From the NCBI GenBank assembly GCA_016218045.1, contig JACRFB010000046.1:62001-126000 (forward strand): 64,000 nucleotides of DNA, written 5' to 3'. The position numbers were made by a program, and so were the translations under genes. Below, piece after piece: positions 963 through 10,093 of the stretch. The DNA comes from Ignavibacteriota bacterium (lineage in GTDB: Bacteria; Bacteroidota; Ignavibacteria; SZUA-365). The notes under the pieces are model-generated. The model searched no databases. It saw only the letters and a list, made by a program, of their open reading frames with translations, and was not told the DNA's origin. Position 1 is the stretch's first letter; every line of letters starts with the position of its first letter.

Positions 963-3776
963 ATGTATATGGTCCGCATCAGCCGTTTACTGCCACTCCT
1001 TTCGGCAGTGGTCGCCGTGCAGGTATCCACCGCGCAGCAGCCGCGTGTGTACATCGCGCCCGACGATCACACGGACTATTTCTGGACGGCCGACGATACA
1101 CAATACCGCGACGGGTTCATCCGCACACTGGATTATTATCTGCGCCTGGCAGATTCCACGGAGAGTTCGGAGGCCGCGCTGCACAGCCGGTGGAACTGCG
1201 ACGGGTGGATGTGGCTGTGGGAGTACAAGGAGAACAAGAGCACGGCCGAGTATGCGCGGCTGCTTGGGCGTATACGCTCGGGACACATCTCGGTGCCGCT
1301 CAACGCGCTCGTCTCGTGTTACGGAGGCATGCCCGCCGAGGCCGTGCTGCGCGGCATGTACTGGCCGGGCACGGTCGAGCGCGAACACGGGCTGCGCTTC
1401 CGTCTGGCTGTCGCAATGGAAAATCAGACGCTGCCGCTGGGCCTCGCGTCGCTGTGGGCGGGAGCGGGCGCCGAGTTCAGTTGGCGCGGCATCTGCGGCT
1501 GCGCGACGCGTGTGCCTGAAGCCGGCGACCGCGAGCACGAGATCTATTGGTACACCGGTCTCGACGGCAGGCGTATTCTCATGAAGTGGCAGTCGATGCC
1601 GTTCGGCAACGCAAACGTCGGTGGCTACGCCGAGGCGCGCGATCCGGCCGCTGCTGTCGATGTCGGAATGGCGATGTGCAACACGCCGCAGTATCCGTAC
1701 AGTGTCGCCGGCTTGTTCGGCGCTGGGTGGGACGACTATACCACGATGACAAACAGCTTCATCCGTGCGGCGCATACGGCGCGGTCATCGGGACGCGATG
1801 TCGTTGTGTCGAACGAGGAGGATTTTTTCGAGAACTTTCGCGCGGTCTACGGTCCGTCGTTGCCCGAGGTGCGGCGCAGTTACGGCAATGAGTGGGAATT
1901 GCTCAGCGCCTCGATGCCCGAGACCAGCGCACGCGTCCGCCGCGCGGCCGAAAAACTGCGCGCGGCCGAATCGATGGCCGTGATGGTCCTGCCGCACGCT
2001 CAGCCCACCGCCGCGCTCGCAGTCGCGCGCGAAAAGGCGTTGCGCGGGTATGGGCTGTACTGGGAGCACGACTGGACCGCCGACGGACGCTTCTCACGAC
2101 AGGTGCGCGCCGACTGGCAGCGGCGCATCGCGGACGACATCGCGGCGTACTCCGAATCCCTGCACGATTCGGCGGCCGCGGCGCTCGCGCGTCTTATCAC
2201 CGCCGCCCCGGGAACGCAGCGCTTTTTCGTGTGGAACTCCCTCGGGTGGCCGCGCACCGAGGCGGCCGACGTCGCCTTCGCGGGCGCCGGACCCGTACAT
2301 GTCGTGGACGTTGAGACCGCAGTGGAAGTTCCCTCACAAATTTTGGATATCGGCGGAGCATCGTACCTGCGCATCGAGGCGCGCGCGGTGCCCGCCTTCG
2401 GGTACCGTGTGTACGAAATACGCTCGGGGCAAGGTCTCTCTTTCCCGTCAGTTGCTCGTTTCACGGATCACGTTTTCGAGAATGATCATGTGCGTCTGCT
2501 GCTCGAGGACCGCGGCGCCATTCGCAGTCTCGCGGACCTGGGCAACGGCGGCCGCGAGTATGTTGAGCAGGGCGCGGCGGCGAACGATTTGGGACCCGCA
2601 TCCGGCCGTCTTACACTCGAGAACAGCGGACCCGTCTCGGCCACGGTGCTCGCAGTCGTCTCATCCCCCGTCCCGCGCCGAACACGTATCACATTGTATC
2701 GGGCTTCGTCGCGCGTTGATATACACACGGTGCTCGAACAAGGCATCGACAAGGTCGAAACGTGGCGCTTCCCATTCGACATTGCGGATCCGATTATCCG
2801 GCATGAGGAGATCGGCGCGGTGCTGCGCGCGGCCTATGAACCCACTGGTCATTACGCCCGCAAGAATGCGCGCACCGACTGGCTCACGCTGAATCATTTC
2901 GTCGACGTCGCGGGGTCCGACGCGGGAATCACGCTGTCGAATGCCGACTGTGCGTTCATGCGTGTGGGCGGGAGCACCGCGTCCGCGCTCGACACTGTGT
3001 CGGCTGATATCCGTGTGCTCGCGGGCGGACAGGTGGACGGCACACATCTCGGCATCCCGACGCAGGACCTCGACGACGCCATCACGCAGCGTTTCTCTCT
3101 GCTGCCGCACAGGCGGCAGAGCATTGACTCGGCCATGCGTTTTGCGCTTGCGCATCAGAATCCACTCGTGGTACGGCGGCTCGAAAACGGCCGGACACTT
3201 CCGGCCTACCGTGATTCATTGTTTGAGACTTCCCCCGCTTTACCGTTTGTCTGGTCGGTCAAACCTGCGGAGGATGAGGGTCCGGGCGAAGTGGCGTTGC
3301 GTGTCTGGAATTATTCGTCATCGACGATGCCGCTGAACCTCCGAAGCACGCGGTCGATGCTCTCGCGTATTGCACGATCCACACACATCGAGACGCCGAC
3401 CGACACGCTGCCGGAGCGCGATGTGCTTCAGGACACCCTGCCTGCGGGGCGGATGCAGACATATCTCTACAAAACCGGCGGCGGCGGGACCGGCCTTGAA
3501 GGTGATGCTCCCGTGCAGGCATTCGACGCATGGCTTGCACCATCACCATCCCGCGATGGGGGACTGCTGCACATTGCGTTGCGTCACGAAGCCGAGGTGT
3601 TTGTCACCGTCTTTGACGCGCTTGGACGCCGTGTCTCGCGAATGCACTGCGGCGTGCAGCGTCCCGGCACGCATCAGGTGCGGTGGAATACCGTACGAGT
3701 TGCACCCGGCGTGTACACGCTGCGCATCGATGCGGGCACCTCGACGCGTGTTGTGCGCGCGCTGCTGCTGCGCTGA
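963..3776 (+). CDS. Secreted GH38-like glycosidase with T9SS sorting domain
   Basis: The protein has about 937 residues. The frame stays open upstream to 402, but that part overlaps the divergent DUF4838 gene; ATG at 963 (or 969) is followed directly by a signal peptide ending near residue 24 (STAQ). Residues 36-41 read H-x-D-x-x-W, the Zn-binding His/Asp signature at the first strand of GH38 alpha-mannosidases. The following region has GH38-like blocks, and a long beta-rich C-terminal half follows. The last 80 or so residues form a T9SS type A-like sorting domain (VFDALGRRV, APGVYTLRI, final LLLR). It probably acts on exported or surface glycans. Mannose specificity is not shown, because GH38 relatives vary. 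No clear Shine-Dalgarno was seen. Confidence 0.75.
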   Translation: MYMVRISRLLPLLSAVVAVQVSTAQQPRVYIAPDDHTDYFWTADDTQYRDGFIRTLDYYLRLADSTESSEAALHSRWNCDGWMWLWEYKENKSTAEYARLLGRIRSGHISVPLNALVSCYGGMPAEAVLRGMYWPGTVEREHGLRFRLAVAMENQTLPLGLASLWAGAGAEFSWRGICGCATRVPEAGDREHEIYWYTGLDGRRILMKWQSMPFGNANVGGYAEARDPAAAVDVGMAMCNTPQYPYSVAGLFGAGWDDYTTMTNSFIRAAHTARSSGRDVVVSNEEDFFENFRAVYGPSLPEVRRSYGNEWELLSASMPETSARVRRAAEKLRAAESMAVMVLPHAQPTAALAVAREKALRGYGLYWEHDWTADGRFSRQVRADWQRRIADDIAAYSESLHDSAAAALARLITAAPGTQRFFVWNSLGWPRTEAADVAFAGAGPVHVVDVETAVEVPSQILDIGGASYLRIEARAVPAFGYRVYEIRSGQGLSFPSVARFTDHVFENDHVRLLLEDRGAIRSLADLGNGGREYVEQGAAANDLGPASGRLTLENSGPVSATVLAVVSSPVPRRTRITLYRASSRVDIHTVLEQGIDKVETWRFPFDIADPIIRHEEIGAVLRAAYEPTGHYARKNARTDWLTLNHFVDVAGSDAGITLSNADCAFMRVGGSTASALDTVSADIRVLAGGQVDGTHLGIPTQDLDDAITQRFSLLPHRRQSIDSAMRFALAHQNPLVVRRLENGRTLPAYRDSLFETSPALPFVWSVKPAEDEGPGEVALRVWNYSSSTMPLNLRSTRSMLSRIARSTHIETPTDTLPERDVLQDTLPAGRMQTYLYKTGGGGTGLEGDAPVQAFDAWLAPSPSRDGGLLHIALRHEAEVFVTVFDALGRRVSRMHCGVQRPGTHQVRWNTVRVAPGVYTLRIDAGTSTRVVRALLLR

Positions 3777-3848: not shown

Positions 3849-4802
3849 TCAGGGCACCGCGTGATTCGTGCCGAGATGCCGCGCGCGCTCGGCGAGGAAG
3901 AACTGCCGGCGGTGTTCAAGCTGCTGCGCATACCCGTGCACGAGCTGCGCAAGTCCGGGCACTGAGCCGGCGAGCGCCGTGCGGTGCGCGGTGGCGACGC
4001 GGCGTAATGCCGTGCGCAGAATGCGGTCGTGCGCATCGGTCGTGAGCAGCGCGTGACCGACACGCGCCAACAGTTCGAAGCGACCGCTGCCGCCTGTATC
4101 GCTCCCACGAGCCGTGTCGCCCAGCGCGACACGAGCCGCGTAATTCCAACGGCCGAGGGCGGCGTCCTCCGCAATGTCAGTGATATCGTCGTCGATGTGC
4201 AGGGCGACGGCGAGGTGCCGGGCGACGCCGTCGAGAAGTTCCGCGGTGCCGCGCTGCCGGTGTATGGCGCAGGTCGCGTGGATGCCGATGCGCAGCACGC
4301 CGTCGATGCGCTCATACGCATCGCAGAGTGCGCGCGGACGGAAGTGCGCGCTGCGCTGCAACGCGGTGGCCGTGAGAAGCGCCGCCGAAGTGCCCGTGAT
4401 CGCGGTCCGATACGTGTCCCAGACAGCGTCATTCGACGGGAATACGGATTGATATGCCCGCTGCGCTTCCATGAGGAAGTGGTTTGCGGCGAAGACGAGA
4501 CCTGGACTCGTCGCCTGCGCGTCGTACACGTCGTCCTGCATGCGGAACGCCATAAAAAGACAGAACTGTCCCCAGAGCGCTTCATCCACCGTGGCGCGTT
4601 TCCGGTCGGCACGTCCCTTTGTCCACGCCTGTTGGGCGAGCAGTGGGATTGAAAGCCAGTAGGGACGGCCGGACTGCGTGGCGGCATCGTGCAGGGAACC
4701 GCCGAATTCAGGTTCCAATGCCTTGATGACATTACGCAGGGATGTGGCGATCCCCGCGAAGGGTCCGCGCAGGGCGTGGTAACAGCGATCGATAAGATTC
4801 AT
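3849..4802 (-). CDS. Class-1 isoprenoid biosynthesis enzyme (polyprenyl synthetase/ComQ-type fold)
   Basis: A 317-residue, helix-rich protein. Two aspartate-rich motifs fit the class-1 isoprenoid synthase superfamily: DDVYD at residues 90-94 and DDDITD at 204-209, the two sites that bind Mg2+ and diphosphate in polyprenyl synthases. Length is close to both prenyl diphosphate synthases (~300-350) and ComQ pheromone prenyltransferases (~300). The sequence around the motifs is far from typical GGPP/FPP synthases; for example the GxxLRPxLv region is not evident. It is the last gene of the minus-strand operon, directly after two small NHLP-like genes, which favours a peptide-modifying role over housekeeping isoprenoid synthesis. 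That role is inference. A terminator-like hairpin lies just before its start and no clear Shine-Dalgarno is visible. Confidence 0.7.
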   Translation of the reverse strand: MNLIDRCYHALRGPFAGIATSLRNVIKALEPEFGGSLHDAATQSGRPYWLSIPLLAQQAWTKGRADRKRATVDEALWGQFCLFMAFRMQDDVYDAQATSPGLVFAANHFLMEAQRAYQSVFPSNDAVWDTYRTAITGTSAALLTATALQRSAHFRPRALCDAYERIDGVLRIGIHATCAIHRQRGTAELLDGVARHLAVALHIDDDITDIAEDAALGRWNYAARVALGDTARGSDTGGSGRFELLARVGHALLTTDAHDRILRTALRRVATAHRTALAGSVPGLAQLVHGYAQQLEHRRQFFLAERARHLGTNHAVP

Positions 4803-4838
4803 GAGGAAAAAGTCCGGCGGCGGGTGTGCCGCCGCCGG
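4803..4838 (-). terminator. GC hairpin plus T-run before the isoprenoid-enzyme start codon (attenuator?)
   Basis: Read on the minus strand, a perfect 10-bp stem (arms at 4829-4838 and 4814-4823, CCGGCGGCGG and its complement) encloses a 5-base loop. Two bases later comes TTTTT (4811-4807), and the ATG of the isoprenoid gene follows at 4802. This has the form of a Rho-independent terminator placed between the small-protein genes and the enzyme gene. It could lower enzyme expression relative to the peptides, and it covers the place where a ribosome binding site would be. Confidence 0.7.
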
Positions 4839-4884
4839 GTTCCAGTTGAGGGTAGGTGGTTCACGCGAGAGCCCGCGTGATCAC

Positions 4885-5286
4885 TCACGGTGTTTTAGGT
4901 GGTTTCGTCGGGGGATTGGGACCCTTCGGCAATCCCGGGCGCGGCGGGTGCGCATCACCGAGTCCACGCATCCATTTCTTCAGAGTGTCGGGCTGGCTCC
5001 AAGGTGGAATCGGCCCCTTGACCCCTATCCCTGCCAGCAGGTTCTTGCTGAGTTTCGTCAGCGAAAACATGAAGCGCATGGTGCTGATGCCCTCATCGCC
5101 AAGGCCCGCAACTTCGGCGCTGACAACCGCGAGTTCATCTGGTGTGAAGGTCATTTTCTCTTTTTTCACAGCGGAAGGAACGCTCTTCAACAGGCGTTCG
5201 AAGAACGTTGGATCCTCGAAACACTTCGCAAGGATCCGTGATATCGCATCCGAACCCCACGGTGAGCTGGGTTTTTTCTGAGGCAT
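4885..5286 (-). CDS. Small NHLP/Os1348-like protein 2 with PPWSQ motif and Pro-rich tail
   Basis: A 133-residue protein with no signal peptide. Residues about 15-55 form a short amphipathic helical segment with DPTFFERLL and TPDELAVV. This resembles the leader-like NHLP/Os1348 clan, related to nitrile hydratase alpha-subunit N-termini and used as leader peptides of some ribosomally made natural products. The C-terminal part has RFMF (71-74), PPWSQ (94-98, Trp96) and a second Trp at 105, then a Pro/Lys-rich tail from 113. The gene at 5341-5652 shares the same blocks in the same order, so the two are paralogues. A GAGG Shine-Dalgarno sits 8 bases before the ATG. A role as substrate or precursor of the adjacent enzyme is inferred from position. 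Confidence 0.7.
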   Translation of the reverse strand: MPQKKPSSPWGSDAISRILAKCFEDPTFFERLLKSVPSAVKKEKMTFTPDELAVVSAEVAGLGDEGISTMRFMFSLTKLSKNLLAGIGVKGPIPPWSQPDTLKKWMRGLGDAHPPRPGLPKGPNPPTKPPKTP

Positions 5287-5340
5287 GGCAGTATCCTCGA
5301 GTAGCTGTGATGTGTGCGTGAGTGAGATCCGACCGTTGTG

Positions 5341-5652
5341 TCAGAGTGTGTCGACCCAGGCGGTGAAGGCCTCTGTCTGACTCCAAGGCGGAGGAAGTGT
5401 TCCGCTGAGATACACATTGTTCACACCGATCTGGTTCAGACAGTTTGCCCGGAACATAAAGCGCAAGCCCGCCCTCTGAAACGGATCCTGTGCGGAGAGA
5501 AATTGTTCAAGTTCGCCAACCTGCGGCTGGGTTATTGGTATACCCTCGCCGTTCAGAAACGGCTCCAAGTTCCCGCCCAGATTCACGTACATCTGGTCGA
5601 TGAACGTCGGATCACTGTAACACCTTTGGAAAAGCAACTGCATCGGATCCAT
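5341..5652 (-). CDS. Small NHLP/Os1348-like protein 1 with PPWSQ motif
   Basis: A 103-residue protein. The start is taken at ATG 5652 because AGGAGG lies just upstream; a GTG at 5685 would add 11 residues but lacks a good site. It shares with the next gene a basic-C-aromatic-x-DPTF block (Cys11, DPTF 14-17), RFMF (64-67), PPWSQ (88-92, Trp90) and Trp99. The Trp-Trp distance is nine residues in both proteins. The N-terminal half looks like an NHLP-clan leader and the C-terminal half is the conserved novel part. There is no Pro-rich tail; the protein ends four residues after the second Trp. It lies 54 bp before paralogue 2 and 117 bp after the kinase. Function unknown. Confidence 0.7.
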   Translation of the reverse strand: MDPMQLLFQRCYSDPTFIDQMYVNLGGNLEPFLNGEGIPITQPQVGELEQFLSAQDPFQRAGLRFMFRANCLNQIGVNNVYLSGTLPPPWSQTEAFTAWVDTL

Positions 5653-5769: not shown

Positions 5770-8175
5770 TCATCGATCAGAATTGACATATCTGCGATGA
5801 GCAAGCTCCACTGCTGCAAAACTCAGAGAATCGAGATCGAAGAAACGACGGTAGTGGACTTCGGCCAGTTCGACCCGACCGGCACTCTTGTGCAGCTCGG
5901 CGAGAAGCAACTGCACACGCGGGGCGTTCGGCGCCAGATGCGCGGCTTTTTCAAGTTCCTTCTGTGCCTCCGCGGTGTTCCCGAGCTTCATCAGTGCTTC
6001 CCCCAGAATCATTCGATGCCACCAGTAATCCGGCGCGACGGTGACGGCCCGACGAGCGAGTACCACGGCATCGGCGACATCCCCGATCGCCAAATACAGC
6101 CGTGCCGCGATAATACAACCAAAATCCTCGGCGTAGCCGCGTTCGAGACAGATGTCGATGCCGCGCTTTTCAAACTCGGCGGCTGAGTCGAGCTGACGCT
6201 CGCGCCGATACAGGGCGGCCCGCATCGCCCACGAAAGATGATATGTCTTTGCGAGCGACCACGTCTCCCGCAGCAGCGCGTGCGCCTCCTTCTCCTTTCC
6301 GAGGTTCATCAGGCATGCAGCCGCGGTCTGGTACACCGGGGCGTATGCCCATCGCGCGCGCACACTCGGCATGACATCCTCGAGCGCCCCGCCGTAATCC
6401 CCGGTTTCGAAACGCAGCTCGGCAAGATTCAGCAAGAGAATAAAATTGCCTGGTGAAATCTGCAGTGCAAGCTGCAGTGAACGCAACTGTTCGGGCTGGT
6501 CGCCACGCAGCACGGCGCCGATGTAGCGGATCATGACATGTTCGAAGGGATTGGCATCTCCTCGTTGCCTCAGCAGAATGTCATACTGACGCTGCATCTC
6601 TTTCACGTTGGGTGTGCCATGCAGATGTGAAATGTACCAGATGCGCGCAGCGATGAACGTCGAATCGTTCGCAAGTGCCTCTTCGAGCTGCTCGCCCGCG
6701 GCCTCACCGCGATAGATCACCTCACGCGCGGACAGGAACGCCTTCAAGGCGGCCATCGGACGTTTGCCTCGCATGCTGATCCACGCGGCAAAACTCGAAT
6801 CGGCCTTGAGCTTTTCGTTCAGCGCAAGGTAGTCGACAATCGCCCCCGCATATTTCCTCAGAGGATCATACAGAGCATCCTCGCCTTTTACGTTTGCGCG
6901 GGGTACCGCATGCAGCACGGCGCCGTTGCGGTCCACGAGACTGCATTGCATAGTATACTGGCTGTCCCGCCGCTGTATCGAACCTGTGATGAGGTGCGTG
7001 ATGCCACGTCCGGCGAGCAGCGTCTGTGTGGCCTTGCTGTGCAGATCCACGCTGCTGGATGCTCCCACTGCGCCGAGTGTCGTATTGAGACTCAGGGGAT
7101 CCTCGATTGTGATGCCCGGCGTGCCGGTCAGGGCATCCGCGAGGATGTATTGGACCGTCCCTGCAAGAGCGGAGTCATCACCGAGCGGCGAGATGACTGT
7201 GAAGGGGAGTACCGCTATATGCAGTTCACCCGAGCCCTCCGGCGGCATACCGGGCCGCCAGTAGAAATACGCGGCCGCGACTGCGAGCAGCACGAGGGCG
7301 CCTGCCGCGATGATGCGGCGTCGGCGTTGCGGCCGCGCCGGAGGCGCTGTGCTGCGCGTCTCCTCGACCCCGCGAATCGGATCGGTGAGATCCTCGGGGC
7401 GATCCTCGGGGCGTTTGCGGAGGCAGAGATCGATGAGGGCGCAGATCTCCTCGCGGATTCTCGGGCTCAATGTACGCGGATCGGGATGCGGCTCGTTCAG
7501 GATGGAATAACTCATCGCCGCTGGGAAACGTCCGGGGAAAGGCAACGCCCCGGCGAGCATTTCATACAACACCACGCCGATGGACCAGATGTCGGCGCGC
7601 CCGTCCGCTTCCTCGTTCCGCAGAACTTCCGGAGCCATGTACGCGAGTGTGCCCGCCGTCTGGCCCTCGAGCGTTTCCCTCATGTGCATGAAGCGCGCGA
7701 GTCCGAAGTCCAGCACCTTCACGCTGCCGTCGGGCAGCAGAAAGATGTTGTCGGGCTTGATGTCGCCATGCACGATCCCATGGAGGTGGGCGGTGCGCAG
7801 CGCTCGTGCGAGCTGCCGCATAATCTCCATCGCGCGCTCGTGCTCAAGCGGGCCGCGCTGGAGCGTATTGCGCAGCGATTCGCCCTCGAGGTATCCCATC
7901 GCAATGAAGAGACTGCCGTCGTCCGTCTCTCCGATTTCATGCACGCTGCAGATGTTGGGGTGCTCGAGTGTGGACGCGGTCCGCGCCTCTGTCAGGAAAC
8001 GTGCGCGCGCGCGTGTGTCGGCGGACAGCTCGCGGTGAAGAAACTTGAGAGCAACCGGCCGGCCCAGCGTGACATCCTCGGCCTTGTACACCACTCCCAT
8101 GCCGCCTTCGCCGAGTTTTTCGATGATGCGGTACCGGGCGGCGATGATGCCGGAGTGATGCTGGGTCGTGTCCAT
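5770..8175 (-). CDS. Membrane Ser/Thr protein kinase with FlgO/TolB-N-like and TPR domains
   Basis: 801 residues. An N-terminal PknB-type kinase domain spans about 15-275: glycine loop GEGGMG (22-27), Lys44 in VALKF, DFG at 156-158 and APE. The catalytic loop reads HGDIKPDN (136-143), so the usual Arg of HRD is Gly and activation-loop control may differ. A basic stretch and one membrane segment lie near 285-310. Residues about 318-440 resemble the domain that often follows such kinases (AVLPF, GRGITHLITGSI), and the rest is TPR-like helical repeats to the end. The kinase would face the cytoplasm with the TPR sensor outside. It follows the SpoIIE-type phosphatase by 43 bp and precedes the two small NHLP-like genes. 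Confidence 0.9.
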   Translation of the reverse strand: MDTTQHHSGIIAARYRIIEKLGEGGMGVVYKAEDVTLGRPVALKFLHRELSADTRARARFLTEARTASTLEHPNICSVHEIGETDDGSLFIAMGYLEGESLRNTLQRGPLEHERAMEIMRQLARALRTAHLHGIVHGDIKPDNIFLLPDGSVKVLDFGLARFMHMRETLEGQTAGTLAYMAPEVLRNEEADGRADIWSIGVVLYEMLAGALPFPGRFPAAMSYSILNEPHPDPRTLSPRIREEICALIDLCLRKRPEDRPEDLTDPIRGVEETRSTAPPARPQRRRRIIAAGALVLLAVAAAYFYWRPGMPPEGSGELHIAVLPFTVISPLGDDSALAGTVQYILADALTGTPGITIEDPLSLNTTLGAVGASSSVDLHSKATQTLLAGRGITHLITGSIQRRDSQYTMQCSLVDRNGAVLHAVPRANVKGEDALYDPLRKYAGAIVDYLALNEKLKADSSFAAWISMRGKRPMAALKAFLSAREVIYRGEAAGEQLEEALANDSTFIAARIWYISHLHGTPNVKEMQRQYDILLRQRGDANPFEHVMIRYIGAVLRGDQPEQLRSLQLALQISPGNFILLLNLAELRFETGDYGGALEDVMPSVRARWAYAPVYQTAAACLMNLGKEKEAHALLRETWSLAKTYHLSWAMRAALYRRERQLDSAAEFEKRGIDICLERGYAEDFGCIIAARLYLAIGDVADAVVLARRAVTVAPDYWWHRMILGEALMKLGNTAEAQKELEKAAHLAPNAPRVQLLLAELHKSAGRVELAEVHYRRFFDLDSLSFAAVELAHRRYVNSDR

Positions 8176-8218: not shown

Positions 8219-9508
8219 TTATACGCGCTGTATCACAACGGCGGTCAGGTCGTCGCGTGAAGAAATAGGATCCGCAAATGTGTCGATGCGTGATGTCAGC
8301 GCATCGAGCAGGGCGCGCGCTCCGTGCGTGCGGAGGTGCGGAAGCGCGTCCATCATTCCCTCGACACCGAACATGCGCTGCCCGCTGTCCACAACTTCCG
8401 TCACTCCGTCGGTGTAACACACAAGCGCGTCGCCTGGTGCGACCCGCACCGTGTGTGTCGAAAATTCCACGTGCGGGAACACGCCGAGCAGCATGCCGTC
8501 GGGTTTGGGAAGCAGCATCGCGCCTCCATCCGCGGAGAGCAGGAGCGGACTGTCGTGTCCTCCGCTCGCATAGGTGAACGTGTGTTCCGCGGGATCGAGC
8601 ACTCCGAGCAGCATGGTGATAAACAACGAACCATGTTCCTCGATGCACAGCGTGTCGTTGAACGACCGCAGACATGCGGCCGGATCGCTGTTCGCCGCCA
8701 TGGAGGCACGCAGCAGCGTGCGGCACACCGACATGAAGAGCGCGGCCGGTACACCCTTGCCGGATACGTCGCCTATCGCGATGGCCCAGCGGCCGTCGTC
8801 CAGGGGAATGTAATCGAAGTAATCGCCGCCTATGATACGCGCGGGCACATACACGCCGCCGATGTCGTACGAATCCACGACCGGGGCCGTCGCGGGCATG
8901 AGACTGCGCTGTATTCCCGCGGCGACACGCATCTCGGCCTCGAGTGCGGCGAAGGAGGCCTCCTCCTCGCTGAGCCGCGCGTTCTCTATCACCTGCGCCG
9001 ACTGCATCCCGACTATCGCGAGCAGCCGCTGGTCGTCGTCGTTGAACGGACCGTCCTTCTTGTTGTACAGTGCAAGAATGCCGATCAGCCGGCCCTTCAC
9101 AAGCAGGGGGACGGCGAGCAGCGAACGCAGGTGCTCGTCCCACACCACGCCGGTGAATCGCGGGTCGTTCCGCGGATCGTCGATGCGCAGCGGTTGAAGC
9201 GCGTTGAGCATCCACCCCAGCAGCGCCTGCTGCACGTGATACGGCGACTGCGGCGCGGACTTGTTCACGCTGCGCACCAGGGTCTTCAGCGGATCCGACT
9301 GCTCCTTCTCGAGCAATGATATCACGCCCTGCTCCGCCGTGAGACGCCGCACCGAACGATGCACGATGATCTGTATGATCTCGGCCGATGATTGCACACC
9401 GCCGATCTGCTCCGCCAGTCCGTTCAGGAACACGAGCTCCTCGACGGTCTGACGCAAGTCCGCGATTTCCCTTTCCAAATGCTGAAGGTGACGCGATGCG
9501 TCGCTCAT
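8219..9508 (-). CDS. GAF-domain PP2C-type (SpoIIE/RsbU) serine phosphatase
   Basis: 429 residues from ATG 9508; an in-frame ATG at 9580 would add 24 residues but has no ribosome site, whereas GGGAG lies just before 9508. A short coiled-coil start (residues 5-30) leads into a GAF domain (about 35-185, with LLAVPLLVKGRLIGILALYNK) and then the SpoIIE phosphatase domain. Metal-binding motifs are visible: GGDYFDY, IGDVSGKG, YTDGVTE and RDDLTAV. Such proteins dephosphorylate anti-sigma-antagonist or other phospho-Ser/Thr proteins in response to a ligand bound by GAF. It is the first gene of the operon with the kinase, suggesting opposing activities on a common target. Confidence 0.9.
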   Translation of the reverse strand: MSDASRHLQHLEREIADLRQTVEELVFLNGLAEQIGGVQSSAEIIQIIVHRSVRRLTAEQGVISLLEKEQSDPLKTLVRSVNKSAPQSPYHVQQALLGWMLNALQPLRIDDPRNDPRFTGVVWDEHLRSLLAVPLLVKGRLIGILALYNKKDGPFNDDDQRLLAIVGMQSAQVIENARLSEEEASFAALEAEMRVAAGIQRSLMPATAPVVDSYDIGGVYVPARIIGGDYFDYIPLDDGRWAIAIGDVSGKGVPAALFMSVCRTLLRASMAANSDPAACLRSFNDTLCIEEHGSLFITMLLGVLDPAEHTFTYASGGHDSPLLLSADGGAMLLPKPDGMLLGVFPHVEFSTHTVRVAPGDALVCYTDGVTEVVDSGQRMFGVEGMMDALPHLRTHGARALLDALTSRIDTFADPISSRDDLTAVVIQRV

Positions 9509-10093
9509 CGTCTCCCGATAACTCCGCGGTTGATGGGTGAATGTGGCATCTTGGACGGCGTCTATTGCGGCATTCCGCATCGCGGAGCGATGGGAAGCGA
9601 GGTGCTTGTAACGTATCGGCGACGGGCCGGTACTGCCGGGCTATGTCGCCTGATGCGTGGGATGTGAATGTACAGCCAATGTGACGCATGATAGCAATCA
9701 GGCGATGGAAAAACAAGCGCAAGATATTCTTCTCCGATATTCTCACACTGTCGTTTGCATCACGCCCCGAAGTTTGCGATCTTGTTCTATGGACTAGCGC
9801 GGACCCGGCTCCGCGCGCTGCAGATCGCATCCGTTGCGGCAGGGATCCCGTGTTCGGGAATCGGTACAACCTCGCCGCTCACGCCGGCCGGTCTCCGCGG
9901 GAACAATCGACGCGAGAATCGGTGCTTGACGGAGGATGCAGGCAACTGCAATTGTCCATAGCGGACGCGCGACCGGCTCTGAAGCCGGCACGCGAGACAA
10001 CTATGAAGCAGAGGCCTCCAACCGCGGGTATGGCGTCGCTTCCATTGCACACCTTCAGCTTACCGACGTTATGCACGGTTCCGGATTCAACGG
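9509..10093. other. 585-bp divergent spacer with three strong hairpins, no gene recognised
   Basis: This lies between the divergent phosphatase and SNF2 genes. The first 72 bases could code for an N-terminal extension of the phosphatase. Three stable inverted repeats occur in the right half: 9797-9816 (7-bp GC stem), about 9843-9857 (5-bp stem, TGTT loop) and 9966-9994 (6-bp stem extended by CGCG/CGCG). This suggests a structured leader of the helicase mRNA or a small RNA. I could not match it to RNase P, SRP, tmRNA or 6S RNA landmarks. Confidence 0.4.

Follow-up and report, generated by a model that had tools for sequence, protein, structure and literature searches.

A conserved cassette in Ignavibacteria, KSB1 and Zixibacteria that may encode a tryptophan-prenylated peptide and its Ser/Thr kinase receptor

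A 64,000-nucleotide stretch from an Ignavibacteriota bacterium (contig JACRFB010000046.1, positions 62,001 to 126,000; the window) raises the question of what an enzyme resembling an isoprenyl diphosphate synthase does beside two small, related proteins. A sequence-only reading had pointed to these proteins, P1 (103 aa) and P2 (133 aa), as PPWSQ-containing products encoded directly before an enzyme with two Asp-rich motifs. This arrangement was confirmed, on the minus strand (Table 1). That reading was silent on the kinase gene upstream of P1, which proved to be a third component of the cassette. From the kinase gene to P1, P2 and the enzyme gene, the intergenic gaps measure 117, 54 and 82 bp, and because these gaps are short, the four genes fit one operon. 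The hairpin between P2 and the enzyme gene is possibly an attenuator limiting the enzyme relative to the precursor; a check of the other loci showed that it is not conserved.

Table 1. Positions of the cassette features in the window
Feature	Position	Strand	Description
Enzyme gene	4802-3849	minus	317 aa, trans-isoprenyl-diphosphate-synthase-like (trans-IDS-like), proposed peptide Trp prenyltransferase
P2 gene	5286-4885	minus	133 aa, putative NHLP/Os1348-like precursor
P1 gene	5652-5341	minus	103 aa, paralogue of P2, putative precursor; good AGGAGG ribosome site
Ser/Thr kinase gene	8175-5770	minus	801 aa, one membrane span and extracytoplasmic TPR domain, proposed receptor
Kinase sensor part	5773-7215	minus	small alpha/beta domain and TPR superhelix
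GAF-SpoIIE (PP2C-type) phosphatase gene	8219-9580	minus	SpoIIE 7e-52, GAF
First Asp-rich motif of the enzyme, D90-D91-V-Y-D94 (FARM)	4521-4535	minus	Asp invariant in 19 homologues
Second Asp-rich motif of the enzyme, D205-D206-I-T-D209 (SARM-like)	4176-4190	minus	Asp invariant in 19 homologues
Trp96 codon of P2 (PPWSQ)	4999-5001	minus	invariant column in the alignment of 23 precursors
Trp90 codon of P1 (PPWSQ)	5383-5385	minus	same invariant column, 23 precursors
Hairpin, 10 G+C-rich pairs then T5	4814-4838	minus	between P2 and enzyme gene; terminator scan

The motifs C-[YF]-x-DPTF, RFMF and PPWSQ occur in both P1 and P2, as does a second Trp, placed exactly nine residues past the first. BLASTP aligned them over 102 aa with 21% identity (E = 8e-9), so that their likeness reflects paralogy and not chance. 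The conserved Trp is followed by 13 residues in P1 and by 37 in P2. The NCBIfam model NF038399 matched P2 with E=3.3e-4 and 20.7 bits, below its curated cut-off of 40.

As a single-sequence query, the enzyme gave no match of note in Pfam, NCBIfam or the PDB, and none in 296 genomes of the phylum or in the species-genome collection; the plasmid collection yielded nothing useful, and PHROGs contained no match. A class-wide genome search recovered 13 homologues (1e-19 to 1e-33); one more from Zixibacteria and four from KSB1 came to light by profile and pattern searches, giving 18 further genomes in three phyla (Ignavibacteria, KSB1 and Zixibacteria). For pattern search, an alignment of 14 rows proved too diverse. 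The searches covered sampled genomes, and genes at the loci were called from open reading frames, without a gene finder. No enzyme homologue was found in the other sampled members of the source bacterium's own family, which indicates a patchy distribution of the cassette.

The pairing noticed from the sequence held throughout these genomes: one small ORF or a tandem pair stands just before the enzyme gene in 19/19 loci across the three phyla. The small proteins are often NHLP/Os1348-like, and where upstream sequence exists they sit between the enzyme and kinase genes. Five of the loci were discovered only once this pattern had been recognised and served as an out-of-sample test, which all five fit. 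Across the 19 loci the cassette has no regular neighbour that encodes a protease, an exporter or a response regulator, and no lanthionine or azole enzymes are linked to it. There was no reason to label the cassette a defence system, PADLOC having returned generic kinase-domain matches only.

The AlphaFold model of the enzyme (pLDDT 88) found its best Foldseek matches among polyprenyl diphosphate synthases and the Trp farnesyltransferase Ord1, the latter being among the best PDB matches with a target-normalised TM of up to 0.72. The family profile reached the polyprenyl synthetase PDB 4lob (E=2.9e-5), and PF00348 matched 3 of 19 relatives. The class-1 isoprenoid fold assigned in the sequence-only reading is therefore supported by the model, by Foldseek and by the profile. 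The Asp motifs read D90-D91-x-x-D94 and D205-D206-x-x-D209-x3-D213, and P47, D90, D91, D94, Y163, D205, D206, D209, D213 and N220 are invariant in the 19 homologues. Residue 202, just before the second Asp motif, is Gln in 16 of the 19, His in the window enzyme and Leu at L022 and L025. In trans-IDS enzymes, the motifs GKRxRP, RRG after the first Asp motif, KTG and GKK serve to bind IPP. They are absent from the enzyme family and present in the genome's own two synthases (L102/L103); the only well-conserved basic positions in the family are R87 and R218, and conservation is weaker at a third, 59. Judged by its residues, the enzyme has retained what is needed to ionise a prenyl diphosphate but has lost the means of gripping IPP, so an acceptor other than IPP is expected.

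The polyprenyl-synthase fold and the Asp motifs would also suit an ordinary prenyl-diphosphate or terpene synthase, whose small neighbours would be unrelated or regulatory. We regard this as very improbable, since the enzyme lacks the basic motifs for IPP binding, the genome has two complete synthases at other sites, and the neighbour and its invariant Trp are kept in 19/19 loci even though the relatives' enzymes are 19-27% identical to that of the window.

Distant homologues of the enzyme fused to a squalene-hopene-cyclase-like domain were observed at L074 (6256-8307), L075 (5709-7934, minus strand) and L076 (6069-8027). These ChrPC-like proteins are related to the enzyme family at E values of about 1e-8 to 1e-9, and small Cys-rich peptides with DPW/APW lie near those at L074 and L075; additional RiPPs that are both prenylated and cyclised are likely made in this class. 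An isoprenoid-synthase-like domain is fused to a weakly matched SPASM iron-sulfur domain (E 0.0085) at L031 (5950-8199, minus strand), an unusual combination.

Alignment of 23 otherwise very diverse small proteins left a single invariant column, the Trp of PPWSQ. This Trp follows Pro in 18/23 precursors (shuffled sequences: mean 3.7, maximum 12 in 20,000 trials) and Ala, Glu or Ile in the remainder; 0-51 residues lie behind it, and elsewhere in the precursor proteins Trp has an ordinary frequency of 1.0%. The sequence-only reading had treated PPWSQ-x8-W as a shared block with two conserved Trp. The alignment upheld the first of these, but the second is private to the window, and the pair was rejected as a functional block.

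Prenylation of the invariant Trp by the enzyme appears highly probable. The combination, which the sequence-only reading had taken to be undescribed, already exists in PalX-PalQ-PalP of Paenibacillus alvei, where PalQ prenylates a Trp of the NHLP precursor PalX beside the kinase PalP (Miyata et al. 2023; PMC10853753). This precedent makes the idea of Trp prenylation much more likely, yet less new.

Alternatively, the small proteins could be RiPP precursors that carry their modification on a residue other than this Trp, or the class-1 isoprenoid fold could catalyse a different reaction on them, such as terpene-like cyclisation after prenylation as in ChrPC. The occurrence of cyclase-fused enzymes in the same class (L074-L076) and the Cys residues that flank the Trp in the L020 and L024 precursors (CPWxDCP) are in keeping with such a route. 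However, Trp is the only invariant residue across the 23 precursors, no class-II-like cyclase domain is fused to the window enzyme (317 aa), and all characterised trans-IDS-like peptide prenyltransferases act on Trp, according to a 2026 review that lists ComQ, ChrPC and PalQ (PMC13290415). We consider this alternative improbable.

The relationship to NHLP/Os1348 proteins proposed from the sequence gained support from NF038399, which matched 10/23 precursors with a best E value of 1e-9; the NHLP leader model TIGR03793 matched 5/23. Genome searches with NF038399 gave no match above the curated cut-off. Its matches fell nearly all at the enzyme locus in the 19 genomes searched and occurred in few other genomes among 382 of the class. 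One of these, G572, was found independently in this way and has a kinase and an NHLP precursor with PPPPPW at a contig end; other matches in the class belong to a separate, ABC-transporter-linked system (G105, L101) or are probable false matches in long reading frames. Precursors were rarely seen without the enzyme, and the first Trp is the same in all of them; regular occurrence without the enzyme and varying Trp positions were among the results named in the sequence-only reading as refuting its proposal, and none of these results was found. In the separate RiPP system at L101 (4730-7899), Os1348-type precursors with Cys-rich cores occur in tandem alongside ABC transporter genes, and the genome lacks the enzyme. 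At L089 (G614; 2488-3265, minus strand), two Os1348/NHLP-like ORFs occur without a prenyltransferase near a SpoIIE-like phosphatase, one of them apparently fused to a STAS-like domain, which places NHLP domains among partner-switching genes.

The kinase combines a Ser/Thr-type Pkinase domain (5e-54) with TPRs, and its strongest hydrophobic span comprises residues 288-306. In 18/18 loci having upstream sequence, the precursor is preceded, at a median gap of 29 bp, by a membrane-spanning Ser/Thr kinase that has a TPR part; only the C-terminal part of the kinase is on the contig at L019 and L022. One extra gene separates kinase and precursor at L020 (13281-14075). It encodes a DUF5648 protein with a weak Lectin_C_term match, which may act as a cysteine protease for leader removal. 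Adjacency of the kinase is in itself weak evidence, because such kinases are common in these bacteria. When the sensor part (residues 321-801) was used as the query, the best match lay exactly at the cassette in 17/19 other genomes (G572 counted), with values of 4e-22 to 1e-49 at the cassettes and of 1e-7 or worse for all other matches in these genomes. The exceptions were G614, where the contig is cut, and G489 (L023). L023 is the only complete locus with a kinase sensor not homologous to the others, and its precursor (7898-8131, minus strand) is the only one of 23 with Trp as its very last residue, as in PalX; here a different ligand end goes with a different sensor.

Enzyme and sensor distances are correlated (r = 0.77; 0/5000 permutations), a pattern that genes inherited together in one operon could show even if their products never touch. 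The sensor model (pLDDT 89) consists of a small alpha/beta domain and a TPR superhelix, with TPR matches. TPR grooves often bind peptides. A GAF-SpoIIE phosphatase gene precedes the kinase gene in the window, L018, L024, L027, L028, L030 and L066 (L028 and L030 assigned by sequence), with a STAS-like ORF between the two at L027 and fragments only at L065. This phosphatase is probably an accessory of the kinase.

We propose that the cassette encodes a Trp-prenylated ribosomal peptide and a dedicated kinase receptor, similar to ComX-ComQ-ComP, and consider this reading likely on the whole. It builds on the observed neighbourhood, the enzyme fold, the loss of IPP-binding residues, the invariant Trp and the cassette-specific kinase sensor. 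From these we infer that the Trp receives a prenyl group, that the leader is cut off and the peptide exported, and that the kinase binds it as ligand and passes on a phospho-signal. P1 and P2 would be the precursors, with an N-terminal helical part of NHLP/Os1348 type as recognition leader and a C-terminal Pro-rich core carrying the single acceptor Trp (PPW). Two ordinary polyprenyl synthases encoded elsewhere in the genome would supply the prenyl diphosphate, which the trans-IDS fold and its two Asp-rich motifs would ionise, and the enzyme would then attach the prenyl group to the PPW Trp instead of to IPP. Unlinked proteins would probably trim the product and carry it out of the cell. The kinase would then bind the peptide through its extracytoplasmic TPR domain and signal inward, and the GAF-SpoIIE phosphatase may counter this signalling. 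Provided that Trp prenylation occurs, the receptor role of the kinase seems reasonably likely. The more specific proposal, namely a prenylated-RiPP pheromone that a dedicated Hanks-type Ser/Thr kinase senses through its extracytoplasmic TPR domain in Ignavibacteria, KSB1 and Zixibacteria without two-component parts, seems to us evenly balanced. Against the preferred reading stand the want of a regularly linked protease, exporter or response regulator, the possible origin of the distance correlation in common inheritance, and the residue just before the second Asp motif, a Gln in PalQ and Ord1 that is replaced by His in the window enzyme and by Leu in two relatives. Moreover, any extension after the Trp abolishes activity in PalQ (PMC10853753), whereas 0-51 residues follow it in the window family.

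A different use of the prenyl group was weighed, in which the enzyme modifies the small proteins as intracellular membrane anchors or modulators, and the kinase responds to a tethered prenyl protein rather than to an exported pheromone. The many residues past the Trp in P2, L019 and L066, the close spacing of kinase and precursor genes and the fact that neither a protease nor an exporter recurs regularly at the 19 loci all fit such a role. On the other hand, the cassette-specific part of the kinase lies beyond the membrane span, suggesting an extracytoplasmic ligand, and the precedents ComX and PalX are processed peptides (PMC10853753), so we judge a tethered protein unlikely.

If the proposal of an exported, sensed peptide is true, the cassette would form a prenyl-peptide quorum-sensing circuit without two-component parts. 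Prenylated peptide pheromones are, to our knowledge, known only from Bacillus-like bacteria, and the ligands of bacterial Ser/Thr kinases are, as far as we know, mostly unknown. Gene order, the invariant acceptor Trp and the cassette-specific sensor indicate one particular ligand and its receptor across the three phyla, with a directly testable substrate (the PPW peptide), enzyme and receptor. The enzymes would constitute a new branch of Trp prenyltransferases and, unlike PalQ, should accept a Trp with residues behind it. A search of open-licence full texts found no description of such a system in Ignavibacteria, and one may exist elsewhere. No mention of a Ser/Thr kinase was found in the relevant passages of the 2026 review (PMC13290415).

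Compared with known systems, the N-terminal part of about half of the precursors resembles the Os1348/NHLP leader clan (NF038399, TIGR03793), but the family scores below the curated cut-off and lacks the linked exporter and lanthionine/azole enzymes. Ord1 (PDB 9v4g-9v4j) is one of the closest solved folds to the enzyme model; it shares 13-17% identity with the window enzyme and acts on free Trp (PMC13290415). In ChrPC (Hubrich et al. 2024, as cited in PMC13290415), a trans-IDS-like P domain likewise prenylates an internal Trp, but a second, cyclase domain is present that the window enzyme does not have. ComX-ComQ-ComP of Bacillus subtilis is similar in its small peptide with an internal Trp near the end, its adjacent enzyme of trans-IDS fold and its membrane kinase receptor. 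The window cassette differs in that no NHLP leader is reported for ComX, ComQ is without the second Asp motif (PMC10853753) and ComP is a histidine kinase. The ComX family model PF05952 matched neither the source genome nor any control genome.

PalXQP shares all three genes with the cassette: a kinase, an NHLP-type precursor with a conserved Trp and a trans-IDS-like Trp prenyltransferase. The Asp motifs occupy near-equal positions, D89/D93 and D200/D204 in PalQ and D90/D94 and D205/D209 in the window enzyme. PalP, however, is a histidine kinase, whereas the window kinase is of the Hanks Ser/Thr type with a TPR sensor and is joined in several loci by GAF-SpoIIE. PalX ends in Trp, whereas the Trp of the window family is mostly internal and usually in Pro-Trp. 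Gln197 of PalQ corresponds to His202; in PalQ and Ord1, the Gln before the second Asp motif is proposed to bind the N-H group of the indole (PMC13290415). PalXQP occurs in Firmicutes and the window family in Ignavibacteria, KSB1 and Zixibacteria. By PalQ's description, the window family is thus set apart in kinase type, acceptor position, key Gln and phylum, and what is new relative to PalXQP is the Hanks-type kinase, the other phyla and a Pro-Trp acceptor that mostly does not lie at the very end.
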